Origin: Deltaproteobacteria bacterium
GTDB lineage: Bacteria > Desulfobacterota > Desulfobacteria > Desulfobacterales > Desulfosarcinaceae
Assembly (NCBI GenBank): GCA_021824175.1
Contig: JAKALP010000009.1
Span: 1 to 64,000 of the forward strand
Reading direction: 5' to 3'
DNA length: 64,000 nt
Shown here: one piece after another, positions 11,793-34,933 of the stretch
How positions within the stretch are numbered: the stretch's first letter is position 1
Layout: each line of letters begins with the position of its first letter
Made by a program: the position numbers and the translations under genes
The notes under the pieces: generated by a model
Databases searched by the model: none
What the model saw: only the letters and a program-made list of their open reading frames with translations
What the model was told of the DNA's origin: nothing

Positions 11793-11831
11793 ATAATCCT
11801 TCCTCCTTCGTTGAGGATGTTGGGTTTAATA

Positions 11832-18631: not shown

Positions 18632-18685
18632 CTTTCAATCCTCCGAAGGCCGTCCCGGGGGACCGCCCTGGTTTCTGCCACGCCA

Positions 18686-19675
18686 TTAGTGGATGCGGGA
18701 CAGTTCCGAAGCAAGGATCGTATCAGAGGCTGGCTGCTCCCGCGGCGCCAGTGACAATTCTTTGAGCAGATCGCGCATATACTCCCTTTCCTCGGGGATT
18801 TCCCTGAGGTTGTTCAAATACTCCAAAAAGTGCTCTTCAATCTGGTGTTCCCTAGTAATCCTGCCCGTTAAAAAAGCCCATTGGAGAGGAAACCGGCCAG
18901 GTACGAAATGAACGTTCATCCAATGCCAGAAAGCCAAAACGATCAAGGCCAGCACGGCCTCGTCGGCATGCATGAGCCTGACCAGATCCTGAAAAAATGC
19001 GGAATACGAATCATTGCCAACCACCCAATGCGGCAACACTTTGCCGATGAGGCCGGGTATCGATTTGGCGACAATGTCAGGAAATAAAAGCGCTGATCCC
19101 GCCGTCATCAATACAAAGCTGCCGTAGAATACCGCCATATAGTGGAGCTTTTGCTTGTACATGAATTTTTCCATCTTGGGCCGGAAAGGCTCGATTCCCA
19201 AGAAGTATTTGATGTCGTGGAAGAAATCCTGCAGATCCTTGAGGCGCGGGATTTGGGTCCGTTTATAGTCGAATTCATGCCGCAGCAGTTTTACAATAGT
19301 CCCGCCGACTACCGTCACCACGTGATAGATGGAAGTGAACATCATGATAAATGCACAGATTCGATGCACCCAGCGTGCGATATCGATGCCGCCGAAAAGG
19401 TCGATGAGGTGCTTGGCCCAGAACAGATCGCTAAAGAAGATGGGCAGGCCGGTGGCCGCCAGAAGTATAAAGGTGATAAAGATCAACAAATGCTGGATCA
19501 CGATGTGAATGGAATAGCGCGGCAGGTCGCCTCTGGGGTCGGATTGAACGTGTTTGTAGATATCCCGTGGAATATGGCCGACGCCATCAACAAAAGTATA
19601 ATAGCCGTCCTCACCCATGGATCTATCCAAAGTGGGAGCGGGTTTTGGGGTTCCGGTATCCAATGACTGCTCCAT
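18686..19675 (-). CDS. four-helix cytochrome b subunit (module copy 1)
   Basis: 329-residue cytochrome b of the formate-dehydrogenase-gamma/thiosulfate-reductase type. Four hydrophobic helices with histidines placed for bis-His heme b: HIVIQHLLIFITF in helix 1, WVHRICAFIMMFTSIYHVV in helix 2, and HADEAVLALIVLAFWHWMNVHF in helix 4. A loop with DIKYFLGIEPFRPKMEKFMYKQKLHY separates the helix pairs. It is longer than copies 2 and 3 by an N-terminal extension of about 50 residues. It lies between an octaheme and a triheme cytochrome gene (7- and 54-base gaps). Inferred role: quinol oxidation or quinone reduction at the membrane. Confidence 0.88.
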   Translation of the reverse strand: MEQSLDTGTPKPAPTLDRSMGEDGYYTFVDGVGHIPRDIYKHVQSDPRGDLPRYSIHIVIQHLLIFITFILLAATGLPIFFSDLFWAKHLIDLFGGIDIARWVHRICAFIMMFTSIYHVVTVVGGTIVKLLRHEFDYKRTQIPRLKDLQDFFHDIKYFLGIEPFRPKMEKFMYKQKLHYMAVFYGSFVLMTAGSALLFPDIVAKSIPGLIGKVLPHWVVGNDSYSAFFQDLVRLMHADEAVLALIVLAFWHWMNVHFVPGRFPLQWAFLTGRITREHQIEEHFLEYLNNLREIPEEREYMRDLLKELSLAPREQPASDTILASELSRIH

Positions 19676-19682
19676 GACGCTA

Positions 19683-20765
19683 TCAACCTCTCTTTGGCCT
19701 GGCGTGCTTGTTGGGACGATGCCAGCTCGAACCGTTGAAGAGAATCAGGCGGATGCCCTCCCTGCGGCGGCCAAAAGTTTCAAACAGCATCAGGCCCACC
19801 ATGCTGATGACCGTGCCGTAAGTGGCAAGTTGGAGAAAAAGGCTCATCAGGTAGATAATTGGATTATCCTTGTGGATGGGGCTCGGATGGACCGCGATAT
19901 CGATGAACCAGTCGCCGGTTTTGGCGTGGCACTGCCGGCACGTTTGGGCGATGTTGGCCTTGTTGATCGATGCTTTGGGGTTATCCTTCTTGTAGATATC
20001 ATGCAGGGCGCTGGAAGCGTGGCAACTGATGCAATCCGCGGCCTTTTTTGATCCCAGCCGGACCAGCTTGCCATGAATGGAATGGTTATAACTCTCCACT
20101 GCTTCGGCCGCCCGTGGCGATGCGCCCAGTTGCAGCATGCGCTCGGAGTCTTGATGGCATTTGGCGCATAATGCCACGATCTGCTGGGGCGCGCGGGTGG
20201 TCTTCTTCCGCAGCCGATGAGCGATGTGCTGAAATGCCTGGATTACTCCGCCTTGGGGATGACAGTTTTGGCAGCGCCGCAATGCTTCCGCTTCGGGCAG
20301 ATTTTCTTCCGATATCTTGGAATATAACGGATTCTGGTGGCAAAAGATGCAATCGGGTTTGGCGGCTCGCATGCGGTCTGAGTCCTCCGGCGTGCGGCCG
20401 TGAGCGCTGCCATTGAAAATCGTCATGATGTGTTGATGGGAAAAGGTTTCCTGGGAAAAAGGCGGCTTAATATGACAGGAGTTGGCGCAATTGACCGTTT
20501 GGGTGACTGGATCATGGGGAATTTTGGTGATGTAGGTATGGCAGTCGTGGCAATCGATATTTCGATGAACCGTATGCCGGTACATCGTTTCATCGACGTT
20601 GTAGTTATGCAACTTGCCGTTGGCATCGATGCGGCCGATATAGCGGTGTTTATGGCACATCAGGCAATTCATTTTATCGGCGGCCTGGGCAGTGAGCGCC
20701 CAGAGGGGCACCATCAGAAGCGCCATGAAAAGACCTGTCTGCCATTTACTCCCGATTGGTCTCAT
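19683..20765 (-). CDS. octaheme cytochrome c with C-terminal anchor (module copy 1)
   Basis: 360 residues: signal peptide (about 1-28, ending TAQA-A), eight heme sites and a C-terminal transmembrane helix (about 305-328) with a basic cytoplasmic tail. Sites in order: CLMCH, CHDCH, CANSCH (CX3CH), CIFCH, CQNCH, CAKCH, CISCH and CRQCH. Non-motif histidines in HRNIDCH, FSHQH, SAHGR, HIAHR and NHSIHG are likely distal ligands. The same arrangement is found at 27028 and 29843. It precedes cytochrome b by seven bases. Likely a periplasmic electron relay docked to the cytochrome b. Confidence 0.88.
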   Translation of the reverse strand: MRPIGSKWQTGLFMALLMVPLWALTAQAADKMNCLMCHKHRYIGRIDANGKLHNYNVDETMYRHTVHRNIDCHDCHTYITKIPHDPVTQTVNCANSCHIKPPFSQETFSHQHIMTIFNGSAHGRTPEDSDRMRAAKPDCIFCHQNPLYSKISEENLPEAEALRRCQNCHPQGGVIQAFQHIAHRLRKKTTRAPQQIVALCAKCHQDSERMLQLGASPRAAEAVESYNHSIHGKLVRLGSKKAADCISCHASSALHDIYKKDNPKASINKANIAQTCRQCHAKTGDWFIDIAVHPSPIHKDNPIIYLMSLFLQLATYGTVISMVGLMLFETFGRRREGIRLILFNGSSWHRPNKHARPKRG

Positions 20766-20889
20766 AATGCCGACTTCTTCATCTCTTGTGAAGGATGCAT
20801 GGGGAACATTTCCGTCATCATAATAGGAACAATCTCCCGTTGGGTGTCAAGGCGAAAAAGCATGCTTTAATATTTCGGATAGGCACCAT

Positions 20890-21891
20890 TTAGCGCATGG
20901 GATGGCACTTGATGCACATATTGCCCTCCAGCCGATGGCGATGGGTTGTGCCCGCGCCTTTGGTGCCTGCGCGTTGATCCGGGATCAATCCTTTCTGATG
21001 GGGGTTGTGGCAGGTCACGCAGGTGACTTTGCCTTCCTGGTCCAAAGGTAACACCATATTGTACTGCTCCTGCATCTGCTTCATACGCTCGACCACTTCC
21101 CGGCTGGGCTTGCGCAGATGCTTGGAATGCATGGGCTGTCGGGCGGTGGCATAATGGCAGCCTTTGCAAAGTGCGCCGTAATTGCCGATGAGTTTTACTT
21201 CCCTATAAGTGGCGGTTTGGGCATCGGGAACATCGGTGTGGCAGTAAATGCATTGGGCCGTAATCATCCGCCCCTGGGCGTCGATCTGTTTATGGGGATC
21301 GCGCTGGACATAGCGGTTGGTCTCATGACAGCGGAAGCAAAAATCCAGGGAGCTCTTGTAGGGCATGCCGCGCAGGAATTTCTGCCCTTTTAAAAGCACT
21401 TTGTCGGCCTCGCTGTCACGGCATTGAATAAAGACATTATGACAGGTCAGGCAGGACATTTGGCCCTGATTGAGAGGAAATTCGGTGGGGATAGTAATCC
21501 CGGAAGATTTATCGGGGCGGCTGTCCACCGGATGGGCGTGGACCGACTCCGTATCAAAGTGGCACCGGCACAGAAAGCGGAAATTGCCGTTATACTTCAA
21601 CACTTTGGCCTCCGCACCGTTGGTGCGGCCGGCATGGCATTCGCCACAGTAGCGACCTGAAAAGTGGATATTGGTGCTTTTGGGCAGTTCGGCGCTTTCG
21701 GCTCGTGGGGGTGTGGCCGTGGGATGGGCCGGCGCCAGGGGCATCTTTTTTTCAAAGCGGGTTCCACTGCGGGCCTGCGCTATTTCATTGGCCTCAGTGT
21801 GCGCAACGACCGCCAAACATAGCCATACGGCCAGCAGGCCCAGCCACACCGCGCTTAACGAACAGCGCCTATGTTCCGCTGGCGGCATCAT
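20890..21891 (-). CDS. periplasmic multiheme cytochrome c (7 CXXCH plus one CXCH)
   Basis: 333 residues. A signal or anchor helix (about 13-33) is followed by a Pro-rich linker and heme motifs CGECH, CLTCH, CFRCH, CIYCH, CKGCH, CVTCH and CIKCH. Between the first two is CRCH, a CX1CH sequence at the place where an eighth heme would fall. No C-terminal anchor. Its ATG overlaps the stop of the 20-heme cytochrome gene (ATGATG), so the two are translationally coupled and probably act together. Not a copy of the octaheme module proteins: spacing and signature blocks differ. Role inferred as a soluble or lipid-facing electron carrier. Confidence 0.83.
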   Translation of the reverse strand: MMPPAEHRRCSLSAVWLGLLAVWLCLAVVAHTEANEIAQARSGTRFEKKMPLAPAHPTATPPRAESAELPKSTNIHFSGRYCGECHAGRTNGAEAKVLKYNGNFRFLCRCHFDTESVHAHPVDSRPDKSSGITIPTEFPLNQGQMSCLTCHNVFIQCRDSEADKVLLKGQKFLRGMPYKSSLDFCFRCHETNRYVQRDPHKQIDAQGRMITAQCIYCHTDVPDAQTATYREVKLIGNYGALCKGCHYATARQPMHSKHLRKPSREVVERMKQMQEQYNMVLPLDQEGKVTCVTCHNPHQKGLIPDQRAGTKGAGTTHRHRLEGNMCIKCHPMR

Positions 21892-24365
21892 GGCTCGAAG
21901 CTCTCCGTGTGGCCGGTGATCAGGGCCCGTTTTTCAAGGTCATGGAAGTATAGGTAGCGTGAAAGTGCTTCGGTCCCATGACAGTCCATGCAAATCATAT
22001 TGGTGCTGGTGGTCCGTAAAAAGCTGGTGCTCGCGTCGCCTTCCACCGGAGCAATGCTGCCTCTGGCGTTTACGTCGTTCGTCCACTGATGCGCATTGTG
22101 GCAGGAAGCGCAGGAGATTTCGCCATTGGCCAGGGCGCGTCCGGTGCCGGAGTCGAATAACGGAAAGTAGGCCGGGGTTCCTTCCTGGGTGTGGCCGATA
22201 TTTCTGAACAGCATGTCGCTGGGATGGGTGGCGATCTGGGGCAGCTTGGCCCCTCCCGGTCCATTTTTGAGATGACAACTGCGGCAGAGCCCCTCCTGGG
22301 GACTGTAGGCTGTTGGAATCTCCCGGGCCCAGAGCAACAATGGATTTTTGCTGTTGTGCACCAGATGACAGGCACTGCATGGGCCGGAATCCTTCACCGT
22401 CCGCCCCGACAGGTTTTGAACCGCGGGGCCGGTGAGATTCAAATCGTGATCCGTGGATAGCACCCGCGCCTGGTGGGTATGGCAATCGGCGCACAGTTGC
22501 GCCGAGGGGGAATTATCCAAGCGCAGAAATTTGCCGGACGGTTCGGCGGTCTCCGTCTGGATTGAAGTTTTGCCTTCGTCTTTGGGGCGCCGCCGGTGGG
22601 GATCATGGCAGGTATAGCACACCACCTGTCCGCCCTCGGCCAACCGCCCTTTGGCATCGAACAACGGCAGGCGCGATTTCATTCCCAGTTGGGCCGGGGA
22701 GATGTTGATGGGATGGGATGTCTTGTGAATCAATTTTTCAGGAGCCGCGCCCTTTTCGCGGTGGCAACTGAAGCATAGCGCGGACTGGAGCGGGTCATCG
22801 GCTTTGGGCATGGTTTTGGCCCACAAATATTGGGCATTGCCGCCGTGCACCAGATGACAGCCACCGCAAATGCCGGCCGTGGCCGGCGTCTGATCCAGTA
22901 GATTGAGTTCCTGGGGCGCGGTTTTGATCAGATTGTGGGTAGAGTCCGCCACCGCAAACTTATCCATATGGCATGCTTCGCAGATTTTGGGGGACGGCAG
23001 GCGCAGGAAGAGATCTCCGGGCGATTTTGAATTGTTCTGGGTTCCTGTTTTGGGCGCATCGCTCTTTTGTCGACGGTGGGGGTCGTGGCAGGTGGCGCAG
23101 GTCATTTTGCCATTGTCGGACGGCACGCCGTTGGGATCAAAAAGCGGCAGCTCCAGGTTGCCCTTTTGGGCTTGGGCGCTGACGATGAGACGATCCGGCG
23201 CCTGATTGGCAAAGGGCGTCACGCCCAAGGGGTGGGAAGCATTATTGAAAAGCTTTGGCTTGGCGGCCACCCGGCCCTTGGCATGGCAGCTCAGGCACGC
23301 CTGGGCCGCGGGCTCGCCAGCGCCGGAAAGCGTCAGGGCGGATTTATGGGGCAGGTGGCAGGCGGAACAGACACCGGCTTCGGCCACGGTCTGGCCCTGG
23401 GCGTTTTTGGTCTGGGGGGCGGATTTGGCCAAATTGTGGCCGGATTCAGCCACCGATTGCTTGTTGGTATGGCAGATCAAACACAAGCCGTCCTTGACTT
23501 CGGTCATGATCAACAGCTTCTGACCGCTTTGCTTGCCGTGAACTTTATGGCAGGTCAGACAGATCACCTCACCGGCTTTGCCCGTGCGGGCGCCCTTTTC
23601 CATTAGGGTGGCCGGGATGGTGGCCGTCACCGGCCGGGCGTTGATGACATGGCCGGGCTTTTTCAGCCCCTCGGCGGTGAGTTTGCCTTTATCCACATGG
23701 CAGGCCAGGCACAATTCCGCATTGCGGCTGCTTTTGATTAAAAAGGCATCGGCGGTGGAGCCGTGGGCCGCGTGGCAAATTTCACACGTGATCTTGTTGG
23801 GATCTTTGCCGGCGGCCGCGCTCAAACGAAGAAAAGCTTCCGGGGTTTTGCTTTTGACGATGCCCATGGGATGGCTGTGATCGGGAGCCGTGGTGTCCAT
23901 GCTGGGATGGCACATGCGGCACATGGCCGAGTCCTTATTGGAAATACGCATGAAGATGGTGGTCTCTTCATTGGGCCCGCTGGGCACGCCATGCGCGGTG
24001 TGGCAGGTGGCGCATTGGACTTTGCCGTTTTCATCCAGGGGGAAGATTTCGGGAATTTTCATGCCTTCGGGCGGAGCCACGTTGGTCTTGTGGCCGCGGC
24101 CGACGCTCATCTTCGCCCGGGAGTCCATGACGCTGCCGTCGTGGCATGAGGCGCACATTTCCGGCGTGGCCACTACTTTTTCCGACTGATAGGGCACCAG
24201 GTCCGTGCCGCGGCCCTCAATGAAGAAAGTATCGATCCAGCGGTAATGGCATAGCGCGCAGGCTTTGGCGGACTTGGGATTTTTGGGCACGGTCATTTCA
24301 GCCCAAGCAGTATTGAGGGGCAGGAGTAGAAAAAGGATCATCACCAATACCGCCACAAGCACCAT
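21888..24365 (-). CDS. 20-heme c-type cytochrome
   Basis: 825 residues with a signal peptide (MVLVAVLVMILFLLLPLNTAWA) and 20 CXXCH motifs spaced along the chain, with no transmembrane helix after the signal. The sequence is internally repetitive: a unit with CHDPHRR(R/Q), FLRL, an AC/LCxxCH site, STH(N/D)L and CSACHLVH or CGGCHLVH recurs from about residue 380, and shorter CxxCHxAHG units fill the N-terminal half. I chose the ATG at 24365; the longer frame from 24515 would translate an intergenic repeat and bury the signal peptide. Such molecules act as electron wires or reservoirs in the periplasm or outside the cell. No porin-like partner is encoded here. Confidence 0.87.
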   Translation of the reverse strand: MVLVAVLVMILFLLLPLNTAWAEMTVPKNPKSAKACALCHYRWIDTFFIEGRGTDLVPYQSEKVVATPEMCASCHDGSVMDSRAKMSVGRGHKTNVAPPEGMKIPEIFPLDENGKVQCATCHTAHGVPSGPNEETTIFMRISNKDSAMCRMCHPSMDTTAPDHSHPMGIVKSKTPEAFLRLSAAAGKDPNKITCEICHAAHGSTADAFLIKSSRNAELCLACHVDKGKLTAEGLKKPGHVINARPVTATIPATLMEKGARTGKAGEVICLTCHKVHGKQSGQKLLIMTEVKDGLCLICHTNKQSVAESGHNLAKSAPQTKNAQGQTVAEAGVCSACHLPHKSALTLSGAGEPAAQACLSCHAKGRVAAKPKLFNNASHPLGVTPFANQAPDRLIVSAQAQKGNLELPLFDPNGVPSDNGKMTCATCHDPHRRQKSDAPKTGTQNNSKSPGDLFLRLPSPKICEACHMDKFAVADSTHNLIKTAPQELNLLDQTPATAGICGGCHLVHGGNAQYLWAKTMPKADDPLQSALCFSCHREKGAAPEKLIHKTSHPINISPAQLGMKSRLPLFDAKGRLAEGGQVVCYTCHDPHRRRPKDEGKTSIQTETAEPSGKFLRLDNSPSAQLCADCHTHQARVLSTDHDLNLTGPAVQNLSGRTVKDSGPCSACHLVHNSKNPLLLWAREIPTAYSPQEGLCRSCHLKNGPGGAKLPQIATHPSDMLFRNIGHTQEGTPAYFPLFDSGTGRALANGEISCASCHNAHQWTNDVNARGSIAPVEGDASTSFLRTTSTNMICMDCHGTEALSRYLYFHDLEKRALITGHTESFEP

Positions 24366-24433
24366 ATAACGGGCGCTCTCTTTGGTAAGGAATGGAGAAA
24401 AATCCGATATGCCTTTTAAACCCCTCACCCCGA

Positions 24434-24455
24434 CCCTCTCCCCCAGGGGCGAGGG
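24434..24455. repeat. REP-like palindrome
   Basis: CCCTC-T-CCCCC-A-GGGG-C-GAGGG forms a near-perfect hairpin. The surrounding sequence (24416-24460) matches the common intergenic repeat of proteobacteria that encodes 'SPLGERVGVRG' when read through. A pyrimidine-rich degenerate stretch follows at about 24510-24590. Both lie between the NHL and 20-heme genes. Confidence 0.6.
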
Positions 24456-24574
24456 AGCACTCGCTCGTGAGACCGATAGTAATAACGGTATAGTGTCGTA
24501 TTGCGTTTCCCTCACTCCCTTAATCCCTTTGTGCCTTTGCGCCTCAGTGCCTTGTGTCTTTGTCCCTCAGTCCC

Positions 24575-25546
24575 TCACTCCTTCCCCCCAATACTATAAA
24601 CACCCACCCGATTGGCAAACATCTCCACCACATAAAGCCGGTTCTGGCGATCGATCCAAAGGCCGACCGGAGATTTGAAGCGTTTAATCTTCTTGGTGTC
24701 CGGATCACCGATAGCCGCTAGAAATTCTCCATTGTGTCCAAACACCTGAATCACACCCATGTAGCTGTCGGAAACAAAGACCCGGCCGCTTTTATCCAAG
24801 GCCACCCCCTTGGGGCGGAAGAACTGCCCTTTCTCTACGCCCCAATCACCGATGTTTTCTACGAACAACCCTTTCGAATTGAGCACTTGAACCCGGGTGT
24901 TGATTACATCGGAGATGTACAGCAGGCCTTCTTTGTCCTGGGTGATGAGAAAAGGATACCTGAATTCGCGATTGCCCGTGCCCGGTTTGCCGAAGGTATC
25001 GACCAGGCGCAAGGAGAGCAGATCAAACACCAGGATCTGGTGGTGATCGTTGTTGACCACATAGAGCCGTTTGGCGGAAGAATCGGCCACCATGTCGGTG
25101 GGATCGCCGGCCCGTCCCCCGGCCGGGGTGATTTTGCACTCGTTGATAAACTCTCCCTTGGGGGAGAAGATCTGCACGCGGTGATTGCCCGAGTCGGCGA
25201 TGTAGATCTTGCCTTCGGTATCGATGTCGATGCCCAACGGTTGGTTAAACTCGCTGGCCCCGGTTCCTTCGCGACCGAAACTGCCGTGAAATTCGCCATT
25301 GTATTTAAAAATCTTGATGGCGTTGTTAACGCCGTCCACCACATAAATGAAATCGGAGGCAGACACCGCCACTTCACTGGGGTTGTTGAATTGGCCCGTG
25401 ATATCAAAGAGGTGTTTGGCGAAAAGAAAATTGATTGCCCCGGCACTGGTGACATTGAAATGCAGTAGAAGCAGAACAAACAGCGTACTTCGCAAGCGGC
25501 CTTTAATATTGGCGGTATATTTCTTCGACCTCATTCGATCCATCAC
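24575..25546 (-). CDS. NHL-repeat beta-propeller protein
   Basis: 323 residues: a signal peptide (about 17-38) and about six NHL repeats (for example NQPLGIDIDTEGKIYIADSGNHRVQIF and FRPKGVALDKSGRVFVSDSYMGVIQVF), enough for one six-bladed propeller. No heme motif. NHL proteins are often encoded next to multiheme cytochromes in iron- and sulfate-reducing bacteria, where they are thought to be exported scaffolds or binding partners; the exact role is unknown. It is second in the left operon, 77 bases after the hexaheme gene. Confidence 0.88.
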   Translation of the reverse strand: MMDRMRSKKYTANIKGRLRSTLFVLLLLHFNVTSAGAINFLFAKHLFDITGQFNNPSEVAVSASDFIYVVDGVNNAIKIFKYNGEFHGSFGREGTGASEFNQPLGIDIDTEGKIYIADSGNHRVQIFSPKGEFINECKITPAGGRAGDPTDMVADSSAKRLYVVNNDHHQILVFDLLSLRLVDTFGKPGTGNREFRYPFLITQDKEGLLYISDVINTRVQVLNSKGLFVENIGDWGVEKGQFFRPKGVALDKSGRVFVSDSYMGVIQVFGHNGEFLAAIGDPDTKKIKRFKSPVGLWIDRQNRLYVVEMFANRVGVYSIGGKE

Positions 25547-25623
25547 CGTGGTCCTGAAGCCAACTGTTTTACGCGGGGCGACATCTGGTTTTTCTTATGG
25601 TTATACATCGGCCCGCGCTTCTT

Positions 25624-26565
25624 CTATTTCTCGAACATTTGGGGAAAATAAAAGGTCTTGTAGTGGGTCACCAGCCCCTTGAGATTGATGCTGATCAAAT
25701 TATGATGGGCTTTTTCATCAAAACCCAATTGCGCAAAGTCGAGAATACTATGGGTCGAGTGACACTCGTCGCAGGCCACGCTGATCTCCTTGCGGTTGAT
25801 GTCGCGGTGAAAATAGGCCAGGCGTTGTTTCCGCTCGTCCGCTTTCAGATTCTTTTCCTTTTCCAGAAAGGCTTTGGCCTCGGCCACATCCGATGAATTC
25901 ATCAGGGCCCGGGATTGACCGTCGATGGTGGTGAAAACCGTGATCCGGGAGATGAAGTCTTTTGATTTTTGGGCCTTTTTCAAATTGGGATTGTAGAAGG
26001 TGCCGAACGGCTCGCCGCTGAATTGGGCGCTCTCGGCGCCATTCCAAAGATAGCGATAATCGGCGTGGTTTTCCTTTTTAAGGTGGCACACCGTGCAATG
26101 CATAAAACCATTGTGCATATTCAGCAGGGCGCGGACCATATGGTTTTCGTAGTGGGGATAGAGCACATGGCAGACCCGGCAGGATGAGTCGTCCGTCAAG
26201 GAAGTAATGGCGGACTGCTCTTTTTGGTGAAAGCCGGCCAGCGGGAAGTTCTTTATTTTGGCTTTGTCTTTTTCATTGGTATGACATTGGGTGTTGCAAT
26301 TCACCTGGCTGACGCCGGTATGGGGCACCTGGTTGATGGCGGTGTGGCACTGCCGGCACGTCAGCTTGCCGTGGGGTGAGGCGAGATAGCGGGCCTCATC
26401 GATATGCACGACTTTCAGCACGTGCTTTTCGTCCAGGCGAACCAAGCCGGGATATTGATGGCAAGACAAACAGCCCTCGGAATCCATAGCCAGGGCAGGA
26501 AAGGTCATTCCCAGCAGCCAGATCACCCCGCACAAGCACCCCATGAGAAATTTGATAGATTTCAT
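25624..26565 (-). CDS. hexaheme cytochrome c, fusion of octaheme N-terminus and triheme C-terminus
   Basis: 313 residues with a signal peptide (MKSIKFLMGCLCGVIWLLGMTFPALA). Residues to about 115 match the start of the octaheme module proteins: CLSCHQYPGLVRLDE, SPHGKLTCRQCH, then CNTQCH (CX3CH). Residues from about 135 match the triheme proteins: CRVCHVLYPHYENH, RALLNMHNGFMHCTVCH, CDECHSTHSILDFAQLGFD and an ending YKTFYFPQMF. Total: five CXXCH plus one CX3CH. No transmembrane helix remains beyond the signal, so it should be periplasmic. Start chosen at 26565 because it gives a clean signal peptide and lies about 40 bases from the sigma-54 promoter candidate. First gene of the left operon. Confidence 0.85.
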   Translation of the reverse strand: MKSIKFLMGCLCGVIWLLGMTFPALAMDSEGCLSCHQYPGLVRLDEKHVLKVVHIDEARYLASPHGKLTCRQCHTAINQVPHTGVSQVNCNTQCHTNEKDKAKIKNFPLAGFHQKEQSAITSLTDDSSCRVCHVLYPHYENHMVRALLNMHNGFMHCTVCHLKKENHADYRYLWNGAESAQFSGEPFGTFYNPNLKKAQKSKDFISRITVFTTIDGQSRALMNSSDVAEAKAFLEKEKNLKADERKQRLAYFHRDINRKEISVACDECHSTHSILDFAQLGFDEKAHHNLISINLKGLVTHYKTFYFPQMFEK

Positions 26566-26614
26566 AGAAGCATCACATCGGTGGTTTGCGTTTACTTCGA
26601 AATGGTATTGCAAC

Positions 26615-26629
26615 GCAAGGATTATACCA
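26615..26629 (-). promoter_or_regulatory. sigma-54 (-24/-12) promoter candidate, left operon
   Basis: On the minus strand TGGTATAATCCTTGC has GG (26628-26627) and GC (26616-26615) separated by exactly ten bases, with the TTGC form of the -12 element. Predicted transcription start is near 26604, about 39 bases before the hexaheme start. It lies 87-144 bases from the three-site array. Confidence 0.65.
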
Positions 26630-26715
26630 TGCCCAGCTCGTTTCAAAAGAAGAGCCAAATGGCGCACGCCGATTATAGCACATCTTTGATCGGGGACTGC
26701 TGATTTGCCGCGATG

Positions 26716-26773
26716 TGGTGATATCACCATGTGGGCCTGGTTAAATCACCAGCCCGGCTTGGTGTTTTGACCG
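26716..26773. promoter_or_regulatory. array of three 14-bp activator-like sites, 22-bp period
   Basis: Sites at 26716-26729 (TGGTGATATCACCA), 26738-26751 (TGGTTAAATCACCA) and 26760-26773 (TGGTGTTTTGACCG) share TGGT-N6-ACC(A/G). The first is a perfect palindrome, the third has one deviation. Centre-to-centre spacing is 22 bp twice, about two helical turns, placing the sites on one face of the DNA. The array lies between two divergent sigma-54-type promoters, as enhancers of NtrC-type activators do. Confidence 0.7.
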
Positions 26774-26873
26774 ATATCCGCCGGCATCGCCTACGCCGGC
26801 GGATCAAAAAACCATTGTGACCATCAGCGGTTTGCGCATTGGCGCGCGCGGCGGGAAAAGCGGATGAAATGCA

Positions 26874-26889
26874 TGGCATATTCATTGCT
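26874..26889 (+). promoter_or_regulatory. sigma-54 (-24/-12) promoter candidate, right operon
   Basis: TGGCATATTCATTGCT matches the consensus TGGCAC-N5-TTGC well: GG at 26875-26876, GC at 26887-26888, ten bases between. Predicted start is near 26900, about 130 bases before the first right-hand cytochrome gene and 100-160 bases from the three-site array. Confidence 0.75.
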
Positions 26890-27027
26890 CTTCCAACTTC
26901 TTAGAGAGGATGCCGAAGCGAAAGCCGTTGATCTGGAAGCAGCCCGTATCTGCCCGTCAGGCCCACAGCCATGTTTGGAAGAGGCCTGATTAAACGTCAG
27001 TTTGAAAAAGGAATACAAGCGTGCTTA

Positions 27028-28089
27028 ATGGCCATGAGAGTTAAAAACCGCACCCTAAAGCGATTGGGCGCCTTTGCCATATGGCTGGCCTTGGTGTTGG
27101 TCGCCCATTCGCAAGCATATGCCTCGGACGTCGGCAATTGCCTGTTGTGCCACAAATATCCAGGTTTGAGCCGCATTGATGAAAATGGCAAATACCGGCT
27201 GCTCTATGTCAGCGAAGAGACGTTCAATCGAAGCATCCACGCCAAAGTCCAGTGCGAAGGCTGCCACACCGATATCAAGAAGATTCCCCACGATCCGGCC
27301 AAGAAAGTCGACTGCCTGACCCAATGCCACATCATTGAGCCCACCAGCGAACAAAAATTCTCCCATAAGGGCGTCGAGGAGTTTCTGGAGCACAGTGTTC
27401 ACGGCCGCTATGATAAAAATGGCAACCTGAAAAAGTTTGCCGAAGATCTACCGACTTGCAAGGATTGCCACGACAACCCCATGTTCCGGCCGCTGTCATT
27501 CTTCAAGCGGGTGCGGCCGGGCATTTCCGATGCGGCCCTGGGCCGTTGCCGGGTGTGCCATTCCAAGGATGAATTTATCTACCGGTTTTATAACCACGTC
27601 ACCACCCGGTTGCACACCACCCGCAACCCTAAGAATATCGCCGAAGTGTGCGCCCGCTGCCATGATAACTCCGAGCTCATCGCCCGGCACGGGCTATCGT
27701 TCAAAGCGGTGGCGACCTACACCGAGACCTTTCACGGCAAGTCGGCCGAATATCTCAGCGAGCGGGTGCCCGACTGCCTCAACTGTCATGTGAAAAAGGG
27801 ACAATCCCCGCACCAGATGCTCAGCTATAAAGATCCCCAATCCTCTACTTACAAAGACAACAAACTGGCCGTGTGTCTGACGGAAGAGTGCCATCCCAGC
27901 GCCGGCGCGAAGTTGGCGGACTACAATCCGCACCCCAATTTCGATCGCAAACAAAATCCCCGGCAATTCTATTTCACGGCTTTTTTCATCTTGTTGACCG
28001 GCGGGACGTTGTTGCCCCTGATGTTGGTCATGTTCCTGGATCTGCTCAGAACCATGTTCCCCCATGCATCCCTATTACGGAAGAAGTAG
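27028..28089 (+). CDS. octaheme cytochrome c with C-terminal anchor (module copy 2)
   Basis: 353 residues from the ATG at 27028 (AAGGA about 15 bases upstream; earlier ATG at 26971 has no site). Signal peptide ends AQAYA-S type; heme sites CLLCH, CEGCH, CLTQCH (CX3CH), CKDCH, CRVCH, CARCH, CLNCH and CLTEECH (CX4CH); then a C-terminal helix (about 310-335). Extra conserved histidines occur in SIHAKVQC, FSHKG, HSVHGR, HVTTRLH and TFHGKS. Homologous over its length to copies 1 and 3. First gene of the right operon, three bases before cytochrome b. Likely relays electrons between the membrane cytochrome b and periplasmic carriers. Confidence 0.88.
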   Translation: MAMRVKNRTLKRLGAFAIWLALVLVAHSQAYASDVGNCLLCHKYPGLSRIDENGKYRLLYVSEETFNRSIHAKVQCEGCHTDIKKIPHDPAKKVDCLTQCHIIEPTSEQKFSHKGVEEFLEHSVHGRYDKNGNLKKFAEDLPTCKDCHDNPMFRPLSFFKRVRPGISDAALGRCRVCHSKDEFIYRFYNHVTTRLHTTRNPKNIAEVCARCHDNSELIARHGLSFKAVATYTETFHGKSAEYLSERVPDCLNCHVKKGQSPHQMLSYKDPQSSTYKDNKLAVCLTEECHPSAGAKLADYNPHPNFDRKQNPRQFYFTAFFILLTGGTLLPLMLVMFLDLLRTMFPHASLLRKK

Positions 28090-28092
28090 GCC

Positions 28093-28941
28093 ATGGAAAA
28101 GCAATTCACCATAAAGATCAAAAATGGCAGGAAGTATTTCTATCGCTTTTCGCTCAACCAGCGCTTTCAGCATATTTTCTTATTTTCGACCGTCATCACC
28201 CTGGTGTTGACCGGAATGCCGCTGAAATTTTACGATACCCGCTGGGCCAAGCCGCTCTATGCCATATTCGGTGGCATCAATTATACGCCGGTCGTGCATA
28301 AGGTCGCCGGTGTTTTGCTGCTGATGTTGTTCGTCTATCACATCGGCTATCTGATCTATAATTTTACGGTCGACGAAGTAAAACCACTCAAAGCCGCCGG
28401 GCGACTCAACCTGCCAAGTCTTCTGCAGGCCATCATGCGACAGCCCATGATGCCTCAATGGCGCGACGCCAAAGAGATTTTGCAATTGATGAAATATCTT
28501 TTCTTCCTGACGCCCGAAAGGGTTGCCGGCGATAAATACACCTGGAAAGAGAAATTCGACTACTGGGCGCCCTTCTGGGGTATTGTGATCATCGGTTCGT
28601 CGGGGCTTATCCGCTGGCAAAAAGAGCTTTTCTCCCACCTGTTTTCCGGTGAATTGATTAATTACGCCGTCATCGCCCACGGGGATGAAGCCCTGCTGGC
28701 CGCCCTGTTCCTGTTTATCTGGCATTTTTATAACGTTCATCTATCCACCATGGTTTTTCCCATGGGTACCGTTTTTTTGACTGGTTATCTGTCCGAAGAG
28801 ATGATGATTCATGAACATTACGGCCAGTATGTGGAAGTGATGAAACAGGCCGGGCTCGAACGCGAAATCCAGCCCTTGCCGGGAAGCGGGGATCAACACC
28901 GCGCAAGAGGGCCGGAGACCGCCGCGCCAGTGGGGTACTAA
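28093..28941 (+). CDS. four-helix cytochrome b subunit (module copy 2)
   Basis: 282 residues, four transmembrane helices with candidate heme b ligands: FQHIFLFSTVITLVLTG (helix 1), VVHKVAGVLLLMLFVYHIGYL (helix 2), and AHGDEALLAALFLFIWHFYNVHL (helix 4). The central loop carries EILQLMKYLFFLTPERVAGDKYTWKEKFDYW, the counterpart of the loops in copies 1 and 3. Three bases separate it from the octaheme gene and four from the triheme gene, so the three products are presumably made together. Inferred to exchange electrons with menaquinone. The C-terminal 30 residues are polar and variable. Confidence 0.88.
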   Translation: MEKQFTIKIKNGRKYFYRFSLNQRFQHIFLFSTVITLVLTGMPLKFYDTRWAKPLYAIFGGINYTPVVHKVAGVLLLMLFVYHIGYLIYNFTVDEVKPLKAAGRLNLPSLLQAIMRQPMMPQWRDAKEILQLMKYLFFLTPERVAGDKYTWKEKFDYWAPFWGIVIIGSSGLIRWQKELFSHLFSGELINYAVIAHGDEALLAALFLFIWHFYNVHLSTMVFPMGTVFLTGYLSEEMMIHEHYGQYVEVMKQAGLEREIQPLPGSGDQHRARGPETAAPVGY

Positions 28942-28945
28942 TCGG

Positions 28946-29824
28946 ATGAAAAAGATCGTTTCAAGGCTGTATATTTTGATGTTGCTTGGACTGACGGTGG
29001 TATGGACCGTCATGATTTGGAATTTGACCTTTGCGCATTTGTATAAAGGCGATTCCCATGAGGTGCAGACCGCCAAAGACCCAGGTCGTGAGCAGCCCAA
29101 ACCAGTGGAGGGCAAGGCCGCCTTTCAAAAACAAATCCTGGACAGTGAAAAAACGGTCAAGCTTTATCTTGGTTATCAAGTGCTTGAGCAAAAGCAGTTG
29201 TTGGGCCATTTTCATATCGTCGATATCCAATTGAAGCCCGATACCCGCAACTACTGCATCAGCTGCCATGGGGATATTCCCCATGACAAATTCAAGGATT
29301 TGAGGGCCTTCGGCAATATGCACGCTTCTTTCATCGCTTGCCAGACGTGTCATATCCGGCTCGAAGGCGATCAAGCCACTCACATCTTCAAATGGTACGA
29401 CCGGGCCACGGGCCAAATCGTCCCCAGCCCGGTAAAGGATGGCGCCTTGCCCGGGACCTACAATGCCAAGATCATTCCATTCGAACGCGTGGATGGGGCC
29501 TTGCAGCGCATCGATTCCCAGGCCAGGATCGATTTTGCGGCCGAATACCGCAAACAGGAGCAGTCTTTGTCCGAGGTGCAGAAATCCAAGGCCAAGAAGA
29601 TCATCCACCAACAGGTCAGCAAACAACCCTACATGTGCGAGAGCTGCCACGTGCAGCAAGGGTCATTGCTGCCCTTTGAAGAACTTGGATATTCCAAGCA
29701 ACGCATTGATGCCTTTGTAGGGACCGAAGTGATCGGGATGATAAAGAATTATACTCAGTTTTATCTTCCCCATATATTGGAACCGGGCATCGGCAGCCAT
29801 GAACCTGAAAAGAAGGTCCAATAG
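28946..29824 (+). CDS. membrane-anchored triheme cytochrome c (module copy 2)
   Basis: 292 residues: N-terminal anchor (about 8-30), a charged linker, then HFHIVDIQLKP, CISCHGDIPHDKFKDLRAFGNMHASFIACQTCH and, near the end, CESCHVQQGSLLPFEELGYSKQRIDAFVG with a tail YTQFYLPHIL. Three CXXCH motifs. The order and spacing match copies 1 and 3, including the block that links hemes 1 and 2. Belongs to the right operon with cytochrome b upstream and another octaheme gene 18 bases downstream. Confidence 0.86.
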   Translation: MKKIVSRLYILMLLGLTVVWTVMIWNLTFAHLYKGDSHEVQTAKDPGREQPKPVEGKAAFQKQILDSEKTVKLYLGYQVLEQKQLLGHFHIVDIQLKPDTRNYCISCHGDIPHDKFKDLRAFGNMHASFIACQTCHIRLEGDQATHIFKWYDRATGQIVPSPVKDGALPGTYNAKIIPFERVDGALQRIDSQARIDFAAEYRKQEQSLSEVQKSKAKKIIHQQVSKQPYMCESCHVQQGSLLPFEELGYSKQRIDAFVGTEVIGMIKNYTQFYLPHILEPGIGSHEPEKKVQ

Positions 29825-29842
29825 CATTGATGGTGGAATAGC

Positions 29843-31024
29843 ATGAGGATGCGAGATACACGGCGGTCTGGCAGTTATGCGGCTTTTAAGATCATGCTGG
29901 CGTTATTGGCCGCTGCGCTTGCTTTCCCCCTCACAGCATTCAGTGCCGGCGGAGAGATTCGCACCGATACCGAAAATTGTCTGATATGCCACCGCTACCC
30001 TGGTATGGGCCGATTTGACGAAGCAGGCGTCAAACGCATTTACTACATCAATGAAATGAAATTCGCCAACTCCGTGCATGGCAAACTCAAATGCACCAAC
30101 TGCCACGTGGGCTTGGACAAAATCCCGCATACCGATATTCGCAAAGTGGACTGCACCACCCAGTGCCATCTGAAGGAACCCTCCACGGAGCGGGAGTTCT
30201 CCCATACCAACATGGTGGAAAAATACAATCACAGCGTGCACGGCAACAGCGATCCGAATAATCCCAAACCCTTTCCCGAAGATCTGCCGACCTGCACCTA
30301 CTGCCATGACAACAGTATCCGCAGCCCACTGGAAGGGGTGTGGGGAACCAGCCAGGCCCTGGCCAACGAAACCTTATCGCGGTGCGTGGGTTGTCATACC
30401 AAGGATCATTGGGCCCAGAATTACTACCTGCATGTCACCCATCGCATGCGCCATCTGCGCTCCCAGGCCGAGATTATCAAGTTATGCACGAGCTGCCATG
30501 AAGACAGCGAAAAGATGAGTCGCCACGGTCTGGATTCCATCGCGACCTTCAAAGACACCTTTCATTGGAATTTGGTCAAGTTCAAGGTGAAAGACGCGCC
30601 GGATTGCATCAGTTGCCATGTGCCCATCGGATTTACTACCCACGACATTCGGCCAAAATATGATCAAGCTTCCTCGGTGAACAAACGCAACCGGGTTAAC
30701 ACGTGTAGCAATCAGGGCGGCATCCAGAGCTGTCACCCTGGGGCCACCGATGATTTCGCCGGCGGCCGCGTGCACGCCTATGGCACCAAAGCTCAGTTGG
30801 TGGTGGACGGTGCCCAGAGTATTGCCGTGGAGGCCGATGAATCCTTGCTTTCCGAGCGGGCGCGTCGCGATATGTCCGAACGAGAGATCATGAATTTCAA
30901 AATTCTCTCTTATATTCGTTTGTTTTATAAGATCCTGATCCCCATGGTTATCGGGTTTATGGTGTGCCATCAGACGCTTGATCTTCTGGCCACCTTGCGA
31001 AAGAACCGCCATAACTCCCATTAA
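29843..31024 (+). CDS. octaheme cytochrome c with C-terminal anchor (module copy 3)
   Basis: 393 residues: signal peptide (about 1-34), heme sites CLICH, CTNCH, CTTQCH (CX3CH), CTYCH, CVGCH, CTSCH, CISCH and CSNQGGIQSCH (CX8CH), and a C-terminal helix (about 355-378). Distal-type histidines as in copies 1 and 2 (SVHGKLKC, FSHTN, HSVHGN, HVTHRMRH). About 40 residues longer than copy 2, mostly between the last heme site and the anchor. The CX8CH site occupies the place of CX4CH in copy 2 and CX2CH in copy 1. Starts the second module of the right operon. Confidence 0.87.
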   Translation: MRMRDTRRSGSYAAFKIMLALLAAALAFPLTAFSAGGEIRTDTENCLICHRYPGMGRFDEAGVKRIYYINEMKFANSVHGKLKCTNCHVGLDKIPHTDIRKVDCTTQCHLKEPSTEREFSHTNMVEKYNHSVHGNSDPNNPKPFPEDLPTCTYCHDNSIRSPLEGVWGTSQALANETLSRCVGCHTKDHWAQNYYLHVTHRMRHLRSQAEIIKLCTSCHEDSEKMSRHGLDSIATFKDTFHWNLVKFKVKDAPDCISCHVPIGFTTHDIRPKYDQASSVNKRNRVNTCSNQGGIQSCHPGATDDFAGGRVHAYGTKAQLVVDGAQSIAVEADESLLSERARRDMSEREIMNFKILSYIRLFYKILIPMVIGFMVCHQTLDLLATLRKNRHNSH

Positions 31025-31058
31025 AGTGTCGCGGGGAACTTGGTGGAGGGTCATGTCC

Positions 31059-31820
31059 ATGCAAACTAGTAATACCGAAAACACAACAATGGCGCTTTCG
31101 GCCGGGCCGCCGGATGACGGCCAAGAGCCGCTCTATTTCATTCGTCTCAACCGATCAGAGAAGATCCAGCATTTACTGCTCATGATCAGTTTCGTGGTGT
31201 TGGTCATCACCGGCTTTATGCTCAAATTGCCGGAGACCATAGTACAGAAGATCGGGCCTGTGGGTGAAACGCTTTTCTTCTATCGCAGTCTGCTGCATCG
31301 CATTGCCGGAACCGTGATGATTGCCGTCAGCGCCTATCATCTATTTTACCTCGCGCTTTATGAAGCGGGCCGGCGCTGGCTGGTGGATATGCTGCCCCAG
31401 TTCAAGGACCTCAAGGATCTGATTCAAAATCTCATGTACTATGTCAAGCTGCGCGATAGACATCCTGAATTCGACCGGTTTTCCTACATGCATAAAATGG
31501 AGTATTGGGCGCTGGTGGCCGGTACTACCCTGATGTCCCTGTCCGGCCTGTTGCTCTGGACCGAGTGGCGCTGGAGTAAATTCGTTCTGGATGTGGCCGC
31601 GGTCGTCCATGGCATGGAGGCCGTGCTGGCCTGTCTGGCCATTATGGTGTGGCACATGTATGAAATCCACTTGAAACCGCATAAGTCGCCCATGGACAAG
31701 GTATGGCTGACGGGCTGCATTGATGAGGCCGAGATGAAAGAAGAACATCCTTTGCACTATCAGAAGATTATGGCTGACAGTGCCCTTCAACATATTTATA
31801 TAGTCAGGCCGCCGCGATGA
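31059..31820 (+). CDS. four-helix cytochrome b subunit (module copy 3)
   Basis: 253 residues from the ATG at 31059, eight bases after GGAGGG; in-frame ATGs at 31053 and 30978 fit the ribosome site less well and the latter lies inside the previous gene. Four helices with IQHLLLMISFVVLVITGF, LLHRIAGTVMIAVSAYHLFYL and VHGMEAVLACLAIMVWHMYEIHL supplying candidate heme b histidines. The loop DLIQNLMYYVKLRDRHPEFDRFSYMHKMEYW matches the other copies. Its stop overlaps the start of the triheme gene by four bases (ATGA). Confidence 0.88.
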   Translation: MQTSNTENTTMALSAGPPDDGQEPLYFIRLNRSEKIQHLLLMISFVVLVITGFMLKLPETIVQKIGPVGETLFFYRSLLHRIAGTVMIAVSAYHLFYLALYEAGRRWLVDMLPQFKDLKDLIQNLMYYVKLRDRHPEFDRFSYMHKMEYWALVAGTTLMSLSGLLLWTEWRWSKFVLDVAAVVHGMEAVLACLAIMVWHMYEIHLKPHKSPMDKVWLTGCIDEAEMKEEHPLHYQKIMADSALQHIYIVRPPR

Positions 31821-32620
31821 AGACAACCCATTTGGATCAAAAACTCGCCAAGGTTCGCCTGCGATTGGCCAAGATTCTGCTGATCGTGCCCATGGTGGTG
31901 TTTGGCCTCTGGTTGCTCAAACTGGTCTACCTGCCCAATGTGGGAAGCGGAAAAGCCGGTACCCTGCGGTCTTCCACGGCGGACGGCGGTATTTTCGTCA
32001 AGATCTTGAGTGATCAGCAGTTGGTGCCGCGCGGCCATTTTCATATGGTGGACGAACATGTCAGCGCCCAGGAAACCTATCAAGTACTTTGCCTGAATTG
32101 CCATGGGACCTATCCTCACCGCAAGGAGAAGAAGACGCGCGCGGTGCTCAATTTCCATGGCGGCATCATGGATTGCACGGTGTGCCATGTGCGCAAAGAT
32201 CCTGCCCATCAAGAGCGGTACCTGGTTTGGCTAAACCATCAAACCGGCCAGACTTCCACCCATGTGGAAGGCGGATTTGGAAAATATCCGGCCAAAATCG
32301 CGCTGGTCAAGATGGGCGCGGAGAGCAAGCCGGTGCTGGTGCAACCGGTCAGCGAGGGCGAAGCCAAGGCGTTTTTAAAACTCAAAGAGCAGTTTACTCC
32401 TGATCAGATGGCCCGGGCCAAAATCAAGCTGCACGAGGGCTTATCCCAAAAGCCGGTGTTTTGCACCGAATGTCATAAAAAGGATGGGTATTTGAATTTC
32501 TCCGATTTGGGATTTGCCCCAAACCGCGTGGATAACCTGACCTCCAATGAAATCGCCCGCATGATCGAAAACTACGAAACCTTTTATATCCCCAAGGAGA
32601 TCGATTTTACCGGGCAATAG
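31817..32620 (+). CDS. membrane-anchored triheme cytochrome c (module copy 3)
   Basis: 267 residues: anchor helix (about 15-36), then GHFHMVDEH, CLNCHGTYPHRKEKKTRAVLNFHGGIMDCTVCH and, near the C-terminus, CTECHKKDGYLNFSDLGFAPNRVDNLT with a tail YETFYIPKE. Three CXXCH sites. Translationally coupled to cytochrome b. It closes the second module of the right operon; 116 non-coding bases then lead to the sensor kinase, so read-through expression of the regulators from the cytochrome promoter is possible. Confidence 0.87.
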   Translation: MKTTHLDQKLAKVRLRLAKILLIVPMVVFGLWLLKLVYLPNVGSGKAGTLRSSTADGGIFVKILSDQQLVPRGHFHMVDEHVSAQETYQVLCLNCHGTYPHRKEKKTRAVLNFHGGIMDCTVCHVRKDPAHQERYLVWLNHQTGQTSTHVEGGFGKYPAKIALVKMGAESKPVLVQPVSEGEAKAFLKLKEQFTPDQMARAKIKLHEGLSQKPVFCTECHKKDGYLNFSDLGFAPNRVDNLTSNEIARMIENYETFYIPKEIDFTGQ

Positions 32621-32736: not shown

Positions 32737-34929
32737 ATGAAAAAGCGGATCATTATCATTTTGAGCATCATTGTGGCGCTCTTTTTGGTGGGTGGGATCT
32801 ACATCATCACCACCATTGAGTCGGCCACCTCGCGTCTGGACCGTCTGATCACCATGCACCGGGTTGAAATCCTGCGGGAGCATCTGCTGATCGGCATCCA
32901 TAAGGTCCAATCCAATCTGCTGCTCATCAACACGCTGTTTGCCAGCGATGCGGATACGATTTCTTCCAATATCAACCATGTATCCAAGCTTTCCACCACT
33001 TGTCTGGAATGCCACCATAAAGCATCCGAGCAGAAACGCCTGGACCAGATCATCCGTGATATCCAAACCATCGGCACTCATATCCGGCAGGGGCTGGAGG
33101 CCCAGATGCCGGATGAAAGCCTTAAAATCCGTGAAATGTCTTATCAGCAGCTGGTGGTCTTAGAAACCCAGGTTGAAGGAATCGTGCACATCGCCAGCGC
33201 CAAGTTGGAGCGAGAAACCAATCTCGCCATTGAAGATATCGGCCGGTCCAAAAAGATTCTCTACGCCCTGGTGGGCTTGACTCCCCTGGTGGCCGGCGCG
33301 CTGGCATTTCTCTTTCTTCGCGCCATGACCGAGCCCATCGAGCGGCTTTTGGAAGCCACCCGCAAACTCAAAAGCGGCCATCTGGATTACCACATTGAAG
33401 TAATGAATAATGAATTTGGCGAGGTGGCCACCTCCTTCAACCAGATGTCCGACGCTCTGAAAAAGCAAATGCTTCAAATCAAAGAGAGCGAGACCCGCTA
33501 TCGCATGTTATTTGAAAGCGCCGGCGACGCGATCTTCATTCTGGAGGCCCAAGGCGAGGCGCGGGGTAGAATCGTGGACGCCAACCAGGCCGCGGCCCAA
33601 ATGCACGGATACACCCGGGAGGAGATGTCGCGGCTCCACATTGAAGACCTTGACGTGCCCCAGGATGCGGCCCTGGTCAATGACCGCATTCAACGCATGC
33701 TCAACGGCGAATGGATCAAGGCGGAGGTCGGTCATCGCCGCAAGGACGGCAGTGTGTTCCCGGTTGAAATCAGCGCCGGACTGATGGACCTGGAGGGGCA
33801 TCGATATATCCTGGCCTTTGATCGCGATGTAACCGAGCGTAAAGAAATGGAAGACATGTTGCGGAAATCGGAGCAGGAGTGGGCCGATACTTTCGATACT
33901 ATTACGGATATGATCACCTTGCATGATATGGACTACAATATTGTCAAATCCAATAAGGCCGCCCAACAGCTCCTGGGATTGCCGCGGGAGGAAGGCGTCG
34001 GCACTAAATGCTATCAGTACTATCACGGCAAGCAGACCTTGCCCGAGGATTGTCCGACTTGCGCCACGGTGAAGACCGGTCGGGCGGCATCCTTTGATCT
34101 TTTTGAACCCCATTTGGGCAAGCTGCTGGAGATCAGGTCCATACCGCGTTTCGGCGCGGACGGGCAGATGATCGGCGTGATTCACGTGGCGCGGGACATC
34201 TCCGAACGCAAACGCATGGAAGAGAGCCTGCAACGGGCCGAACAAATGAAGCTGGTGGGGGAGTGGGCCACGGCCCTGGCGCATGAGATCAAAAATCCAT
34301 TGGCCGGCATTAAAGTCTCCGTGGAAGTATTGAGTGAAGAACTGGCCACTGATGAGGATCGCAACGTGGCCCAAAAAGCGGTCCAGGAGATTAAGCGCAT
34401 CGAGCAGCTCATCAAAAGTCTGCTCAATTTCGCCAAGCCGCCTGAACCGCAACTAAGCCGGACCGACGTTAATGAACTGGTGGATAAGACCACGGATTTC
34501 GCCCTGAAACATCCGTCCCAGGTGGCTGATCAGAACGTGACCATCGAGGTCGCAAAAGCCCTGGAACCCAATATGCCCCAAATTGTGGTGGACCCGATGC
34601 AGCTGCAGCAAATTCTTCTCAATTTGCTGCTCAACAGCATTGAAGCAATGCCCGACGGCGGCCGGTTAACGGTCGCAACTCAATATGATCAAAAAGCGCG
34701 CACGGTTGCGGTGGAGATTGCCGATACCGGCGCCGGCATTGCCGCCGATGATTTTGAAAAGATCTTTCAGCCATTTTTTACTACCAAAAAGAAGGGCAGC
34801 GGGCTGGGTTTGGCCATTACCAAACGCCTGGTGGAACAAAACGAGGGGCGCATCTCCGTGGCCAGTGAGATGGGGCGGGGCGCCACCTTCACGATTGTCT
34901 TTCCTGTTCGCAATGAAGTAGGGGGCTGA
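32737..34929 (+). CDS. PAS sensor histidine kinase with a periplasmic c-heme motif
   Basis: 730 residues. Helix 1 (about 6-27), periplasmic domain (28-172) containing C89-L-E-C-H93 followed by another His, helix 2 (about 174-194), HAMP (about 195-250), two PAS domains (about 255-370 and 375-500), HisKA with H-box ALAHEIKNPLAG (His near 516) and an HATPase (NLLLNSIEAMPDGG, ADTGAGIAADD, KGSGLGLAI). The CXXCH faces the periplasm, where cytochrome c maturation occurs, so covalent heme is plausible and would let the kinase report on periplasmic redox state. The second PAS also has a CxxC-containing cysteine cluster (C425 region, DCPTC). Four bases before the response regulator gene, hence a pair. 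Confidence 0.9.
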   Translation: MKKRIIIILSIIVALFLVGGIYIITTIESATSRLDRLITMHRVEILREHLLIGIHKVQSNLLLINTLFASDADTISSNINHVSKLSTTCLECHHKASEQKRLDQIIRDIQTIGTHIRQGLEAQMPDESLKIREMSYQQLVVLETQVEGIVHIASAKLERETNLAIEDIGRSKKILYALVGLTPLVAGALAFLFLRAMTEPIERLLEATRKLKSGHLDYHIEVMNNEFGEVATSFNQMSDALKKQMLQIKESETRYRMLFESAGDAIFILEAQGEARGRIVDANQAAAQMHGYTREEMSRLHIEDLDVPQDAALVNDRIQRMLNGEWIKAEVGHRRKDGSVFPVEISAGLMDLEGHRYILAFDRDVTERKEMEDMLRKSEQEWADTFDTITDMITLHDMDYNIVKSNKAAQQLLGLPREEGVGTKCYQYYHGKQTLPEDCPTCATVKTGRAASFDLFEPHLGKLLEIRSIPRFGADGQMIGVIHVARDISERKRMEESLQRAEQMKLVGEWATALAHEIKNPLAGIKVSVEVLSEELATDEDRNVAQKAVQEIKRIEQLIKSLLNFAKPPEPQLSRTDVNELVDKTTDFALKHPSQVADQNVTIEVAKALEPNMPQIVVDPMQLQQILLNLLLNSIEAMPDGGRLTVATQYDQKARTVAVEIADTGAGIAADDFEKIFQPFFTTKKKGSGLGLAITKRLVEQNEGRISVASEMGRGATFTIVFPVRNEVGG

Positions 34930-34933
34930 TCGC

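Follow-up and report, generated by a model that had tools for sequence, protein, structure and literature searches.

A putative shared sigma-54 enhancer between two divergent multihaem cytochrome operons of a Desulfosarcinaceae bacterium, and its probable reader

The closest described systems come from Desulfovibrio and Geobacter. Comparison of relatives has yielded predicted activator sites and sigma-54 promoters for DVU3142 and the octahaem cytochrome (ohc) operons of Desulfovibrio (PMC4641369), and the RpoN regulon of Geobacter sulfurreducens links sigma-54 to the cytochromes of extracellular electron transfer, with activator genes that often adjoin their target promoters (PMC2725144). Since sigma-54 activators of cytochrome genes are known or predicted in these systems, the kind of switch considered here is itself already known. 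The present locus resembles DVU3142/ohc in that a sigma-54 activator gene lies beside multihaem cytochrome genes; it differs in that DVU3142 is divergent from its targets whereas here a kinase-regulator pair stands in line with one target operon, and in that a single array is placed between two cytochrome operons (PMC4641369). The main text of PMC4641369, like that of PMC3333781, nowhere spells out TGGT or ACCA, the motif logos of both papers being in figures; the available part of PMC2725144 contains no such array or regulator for the G. sulfurreducens RpoN regulon, and PMC12285233 and PMC12316311, in the parts available, have little bearing on the question of a cytochrome switch. No description of this array, its regulon or the kinase was found in the open-licence literature, and the present switch, the sensor of which apparently carries haem, seems to be undescribed.

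The window, by which we mean the whole 64-kb stretch of DNA analysed, belongs to a genome of 6.07 Mb in 61 contigs. Judged from the sequence and its relatives, it is quite probable that positions 26566-27027 form a shared sigma-54 enhancer-promoter unit for the two flanking cytochrome operons, which is read by the response regulator encoded at 34934 (Table 1). The minus operon comprises seven genes, including one for the c875 protein with its 20 CXXCH motifs, and contains no other sigma-54 match that scores 7/8 or more. In the plus operon, the first open reading frame opens at 26971, with the signal-peptide start probably at 27028, and the kinase gene followed by the regulator gene lies downstream of the two cytochrome triads, at the operon's end. 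The operon limits are estimates drawn from gene spacing and from the absence of more sigma-54 matches; a terminator scan returned 24 sites against 20.6 in shuffles, i.e. about equal numbers. Elsewhere in the window, the translations of the open reading frames at 7089-15489 (minus strand) look by eye like those of a CODH/acetyl-CoA synthase gene set.

Table 1. Features of the proposed switch in window coordinates; operon limits and promoter assignments are predictions
Feature	Position	Strand	Remarks
Activator site 1, TGGTGATATCACCA	26716..26729	.	perfect palindrome; read directly; model rank 1
Activator site 2, TGGTTAAATCACCA	26738..26751	.	read directly; model rank 2
Activator site 3, TGGTGTTTTGACCG	26760..26773	.	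weaker; read directly; model rank 3
Sigma-54 -24/-12 promoter, minus operon, TGGTATAATCCTTGCG	26614..26629	-	7/8 degenerate consensus positions besides GG-N10-GC
Sigma-54 -24/-12 promoter, plus operon, TGGCATATTCATTGCT	26874..26889	+	8/8 degenerate consensus positions
Minus operon (estimated limits)	17792..26565	-	c313 (multihaem), NHL-repeat protein, c875, c333, c360 / cytochrome b / c279 module
Plus operon, cytochrome part (estimated limits)	27028..32620	+	two multihaem-c / cytochrome b / multihaem-c triads
Sensor kinase	32737..34929	+	CXXCH (CLECH, residue 89) before HAMP; two PAS stretches, HisKA, HATPase
NtrC/AtoC-like sigma-54 response regulator, proposed array reader	34934..36319	+	receiver, AAA+ with GSFTDA loop, Fis-type HTH

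The original prediction had placed three TGGT-N6-ACC(A/G) sites at an exact 22-bp period between divergent -24/-12 elements with exact GG-N10-GC spacing, and direct reading of the letters confirms both statements. In a site model trained on nine relatives, with the window's genome left out, the three sites take ranks 1, 2 and 3 among approximately 64,000 positions, with scores of 24.0, 20.6 and 11.4 bits, the third site being clearly weaker. Neither an evenly spaced triple nor a pair at 15-39 bp arose in any of 20,000 dinucleotide shuffles of 26566-26970. The single loose pattern TGGT-N6-ACCR is itself not rare, as it has nine matches in the window on both strands (five of them supplied by the array) against 2.85 expected, a number attained in 1 of 100 shuffles. 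As for the promoters, which were scored against a consensus of the type TGGCACG-N4-TTGCW with GG-N10-GC, the two are the only matches of at least 7/8 in the whole 64-kb window, and a match of that quality on both strands was obtained in 19 of 20,000 dinucleotide shuffles of 26566-26970. The genome carries a sigma-54 gene (PF04552 match, E 3.2e-61), which, together with the -24/-12 elements, is what predicted promoters of the sigma-54 type call for.

The array was followed through 21 genomes of the class, the window's included, which had been sampled through 12 loci of h (the first cytochrome of the plus operon) and through loci around regulator relatives, a sister cytochrome and chance hits. 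Ten of these genomes (G000, G100, G104, G110, G261, G267, G276, G300, G327 and G344) carry a tandem TGGTGAWWTCACCA array, the two sites of which rank first and second within their locus in nine of the ten under a model that leaves out one genome at a time (first and fourth in G110). The comparison with relatives, proposed as a check on the original prediction, came out in its favour: in eight of the ten array genomes, from six families, the array is retained between divergent sigma-54 promoters, a layout that is kept while the genes behind the promoters vary; the two others are G267, cut by a contig end, and G300, which has no sigma-54 match of at least 7/8. In G300 the array pair immediately precedes the kinase gene, in G110 it stands at the head of an operon of NHL protein, c875, kinase and regulator, and in G104 it stands before the genes for NHL protein and c875, the kinase gene following 2.3 kb later; because the G104 regulator sits on a separate contig, its joining to that operon is presumed. 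The h-gene operon of G104 and G110 has sigma-54 promoters and no array. Upstream of h in these genomes (L043:8755-8771 in G110, L047:9310-9326 in G104), a TGTC-N9-GACA palindrome replaces the TGGT array by eye, as if another activator had taken over. A second sigma-54 promoter (8/8) beside the array in G104 (L111:7643, minus) and G110 (L074:16228, plus) faces the 3' end of the d cytochrome gene, and since it points into that gene an antisense transcript is predicted.

No array was found in the stretches read, some of them contig-cut, of nine genomes with genes of the set and without a 34934 relative at E<=1e-120 (G103, G116, G204, G211, G219, G236, G272, G346 and G368; in G116, G211, G236 and G368, 118 of 134-207 regulator candidates were scored), nor in the named loci L033-L035. 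In G374 kinase and regulator are present on contigs that begin inside these genes and so do not cover the region upstream of them. Two further pairs were set aside as chance: the C44 pair of the looser R pattern, the first site of which scores -7.5 bits and which lacks a promoter match, and the exact pair of G106 (L113), in a stretch without matches to genes of the set. Within the window's own genome, a search for TGGTGAWWTCACCA with up to two mismatches gave 116 forward matches against 51 for a reversed control. Of the 15 loci sampled from these (L048-L062), two are the window array itself, L062 was dropped as near a contig end, and none of the other 12 has a second site 18-25 bp away; about 100 further matches lie outside the sample and may include more targets. 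One of the 12, L058, has a 7/8 sigma-54-like match.

NtrC-type enhancers consist of tandem palindromic sites roughly 80-200 bp upstream, and sigma-54 enhancers work over variable distances. For the present loci, the transcription start was estimated as the T of TGG plus 25 bp, and the distance is that between the midpoint of the nearest site and the start of the closest promoter, with G300 left out (no promoter) and the nearer of two pairs taken in G261. The distance is 117.5-119.5 bp in seven of nine loci and 139.5 bp in the other two, i.e. one 22-bp step beyond that register; these figures of register and phase were computed after the distances were known and are descriptive, and shared descent could be part of the cause of the common register. 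In the window, the site centres lie 118.5-176.5 bp from the estimated starts, within the range of NtrC-type enhancers. The promoters had been called nearly symmetric around the array, which is fair given gaps of 86 bp on the minus side and 100 bp on the plus side. The register is that of the relatives on the minus side (118.5, 140.5 and 162.5 bp), the plus-side distances being 132.5, 154.5 and 176.5 bp, and this favours a reading in which the array serves one promoter only, in the window the minus one, with the other sigma-54 match weakly or separately controlled. G261 has a second, weaker site pair (L038:6492-6526, 21 bp) approximately 137 bp past the first and near the plus promoter, as if each promoter had its own enhancer, which would also suit service of a single promoter. 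We nevertheless hold that reading to be fairly unlikely, as both promoters are retained in eight of the ten array loci with different genes behind them, and as the tolerance of sigma-54 enhancers for variable distances would accommodate the plus-side values.

The shared enhancer for both operons being the preferred reading, its reader has to be identified among many candidates. The product of 34934 has the architecture of NtrC/AtoC two-component regulators, with a receiver (PF00072), a sigma-54 AAA+ domain (PF00158) and a Fis-type HTH (PF02954), and its best solved relatives are the NtrC-family structures 4l4u and 1ny5. Its best NCBIfam match is AtoC, at 410.7 bits against a cut-off of 714 bits, so that it falls outside the AtoC equivalog. 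Where regulators of this type have GAFTGA as the loop contacting sigma-54, it reads GSFTDA. The loop is GSFTDA, GAFTDA or GAFTDS in 18 relatives read, and the window's version is close to the variants GAFTDA and GAYTDA, which are listed for Desulfovibrio activators in the available part of PMC4641369. The genome has 57 matches to the sigma-54-activator domain, and the assignment of 34934 to the array therefore rests on co-occurrence and linkage. Relatives of 34934 at E<=1e-165 occur in 7 of 389 genomes of the class, the own genome counted (in these searches, as in those for the distant loci below, four candidates were scored per genome). A scan of as many genomes of the class that was blind to genes found an exact TGGT-N6-ACCA pair at 20-23 bp in five, always at 22 bp, and four of the five (G000, G104, G110 and G300) are among the seven with a close regulator relative (hypergeometric P 1.9e-7, or 8e-6 when the window genome is left out). 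Five genomes likewise carry the reversed control pattern, of which one (G327) is among the seven regulator genomes, so only the co-occurrence is informative, and not the number of pairs.

That a different activator reads the array as sigma-54 enhancer of both operons, 34934 being a linked neighbour, is an explanation we regard as improbable. The 57 activator domain matches leave room for it, linkage by descent can yield part of the co-occurrence, and, as the main objection to 34934, G261, G267 and G344, all of one genus, bear the array without a detectable kinase-regulator pair: there is no 34934 relative at E<=1e-120 (candidates scored 93/93, 118/119 and 118/176), no kinase sensor at E<=1e-15, and no close 34934-like DNA-binding domain, the best reaching E 3.2e-6 (G267). 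These assemblies are fragmented (470-700 contigs, 80-92% complete), yet assembly gaps can hardly be the whole cause of three misses in one genus; the regulator may have been replaced there and the spacing relaxed. Against another reader, no other DNA-binding domain of the window's genome matches that of 34934 at E<=1e-4, so that 34934 has no close paralogue with which to share the site; the array accompanies the kinase and regulator genes even where the cytochrome set differs (G300, G104 and G110); and the spacing is exactly 22 bp in 7/7 class genomes with array and kinase-regulator pair (G276 in pieces), as opposed to 20-21 bp in the three without the pair. The original prediction of one enhancer for both operons, with 34934 as its simplest reader, is in our view supported by the kept layout, by an array that tracks 34934 across genomes and by the presence of a sigma-54 gene.

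Binding of a repressor or of a Crp/Fnr-type factor in place of a sigma-54 activator is very unlikely: the 14-bp palindrome with TGA/TCA halves is superficially Fnr-like, but most of the tandem centres lie some 118-206 bp ahead of the estimated sigma-54 starts at a fixed step (one G261 pair being further away), the sites of a simple repressor should overlap the promoters, and an NtrC-type regulator gene is nearby. Chance palindromes beside chance -24/-12 matches, for which the stray matches of the loose pattern in the window might speak, have a negligible probability in view of the empty shuffles and of a layout kept in six families.

The kinase gene in front of the regulator suggests what the signal may be. 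Its CXXCH is found at residue 89 in 21/21 kinase copies read, of which nine are from the class (the window and a fusion in G219 included) and 12 are distant, a thirteenth distant locus, L140, starting after the kinase. Because the motif is invariant in all 21 copies, the kinase probably senses through haem c, the covalent attachment of which is deduced from the motif; the order of domains would place the CXXCH domain on the extracytoplasmic side. In the 12 distant kinases the alignment extends over sensor and kinase core but skips both PAS domains, which points to the haem part as main input. In the conserved CXXCH the sensor is like sCache_heme (DUF3365/Tll0287), an extracytoplasmic sensor of signalling proteins according to the available part of PMC12889525; unlike sCache_heme proteins, it has no match to that Pfam family (PF11845) up to E 10, and a sequence search against solved structures gave a best hit of only E 0.18. 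In G219 (L112:9638-11900), the same CXXCH sensor and a sigma-54 activator domain share one open frame, making a one-protein version of the pair.

The distant set consists of 13 further regulator relatives (53-61%) in 10 genomes listed only as belonging to the same phylum, for which the test and the site model were fixed in advance. Paired sites spaced 20-23 bp and lying 60-200 bp from a sigma-54 start are present at 5/13 distant loci (5/10 genomes) and at 0/23 control loci, with a Fisher P of 0.0034 that is optimistic, since the limits were tightened to these values after a first listing (18-26 bp, any distance) and since 17 of the 23 controls were already known to be without strong paired sites. 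The sites are weaker than in the class and drift towards GGGGAWWTCCCC; three loci have the 22-bp step, one has 23 bp and one 20-21 bp. The other 8/13 loci yielded no pair, and this, like the drift, counts against the preferred reading. Three of these eight (L145, L148 and L151) were seen post hoc to have the recognition helix YQSLRYQ for YDSLRYQ; the pair-bearing L143 also differs there (YESIRYH). At six loci (L141, L145, L148, L149, L150 and L151) a receiver-only stretch (27-32% identity), perhaps a small separate gene, adjoins the kinase-regulator pair, and in L141 and L149 this stretch directly follows an array and a sigma-54 match. The main reading is based on the class genomes and not on the distant loci.

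These observations lead to the following model. Dimers of the phosphorylated 34934 product would occupy the tandem TGGTGAWWTCACCA sites, which share one face of the helix (22 bp being about two turns), and the bound dimers would assemble an active AAA+ ring. By looping, this ring may reach sigma-54 polymerase at the -24/-12 promoter on either side, so that both operons would be switched on, the minus one from 26565 to 17792 and the plus one from 27028 to 36319. The kinase would sense the periplasm through its probable covalent haem c, the input probably being either a haem ligand or the redox state of the pool of cytochromes or quinones, and because the genes for kinase and regulator end the plus operon, the system is predicted to amplify itself.

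A wider version of this model is offered tentatively, as one that may well prove wrong. It sees a horizontally carried, self-contained redox cassette, in which a non-Cache haem-c kinase would read the redox state of the periplasmic cytochrome pool and, by way of an AtoC-like partner and an enhancer phased at 22 bp in fixed promoter register, would switch two divergent quinone-cytochrome respiratory operons in a self-amplifying manner, the unit being attached to different cytochrome modules across families. The h cytochrome has no relative at E<=1e-30 in 29 other searched genomes of the family, and of the 389 class genomes 12 others have close relatives of it (62-68%). The GC content of the cluster (0.52-0.55) resembles that of the surroundings (0.54-0.56), so composition does not indicate a recent transfer.

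If the preferred reading, a shared enhancer read by the 34934 regulator, is right, it describes a switch of large multihaem cytochrome operons that can be put to the test, in a group with many sigma-54 activators. It would predict the regulator, the DNA word (TGGTGAWWTCACCA with its 22-bp step) and the likely redox input, and the regulon would be findable in other genomes by a simple scan.
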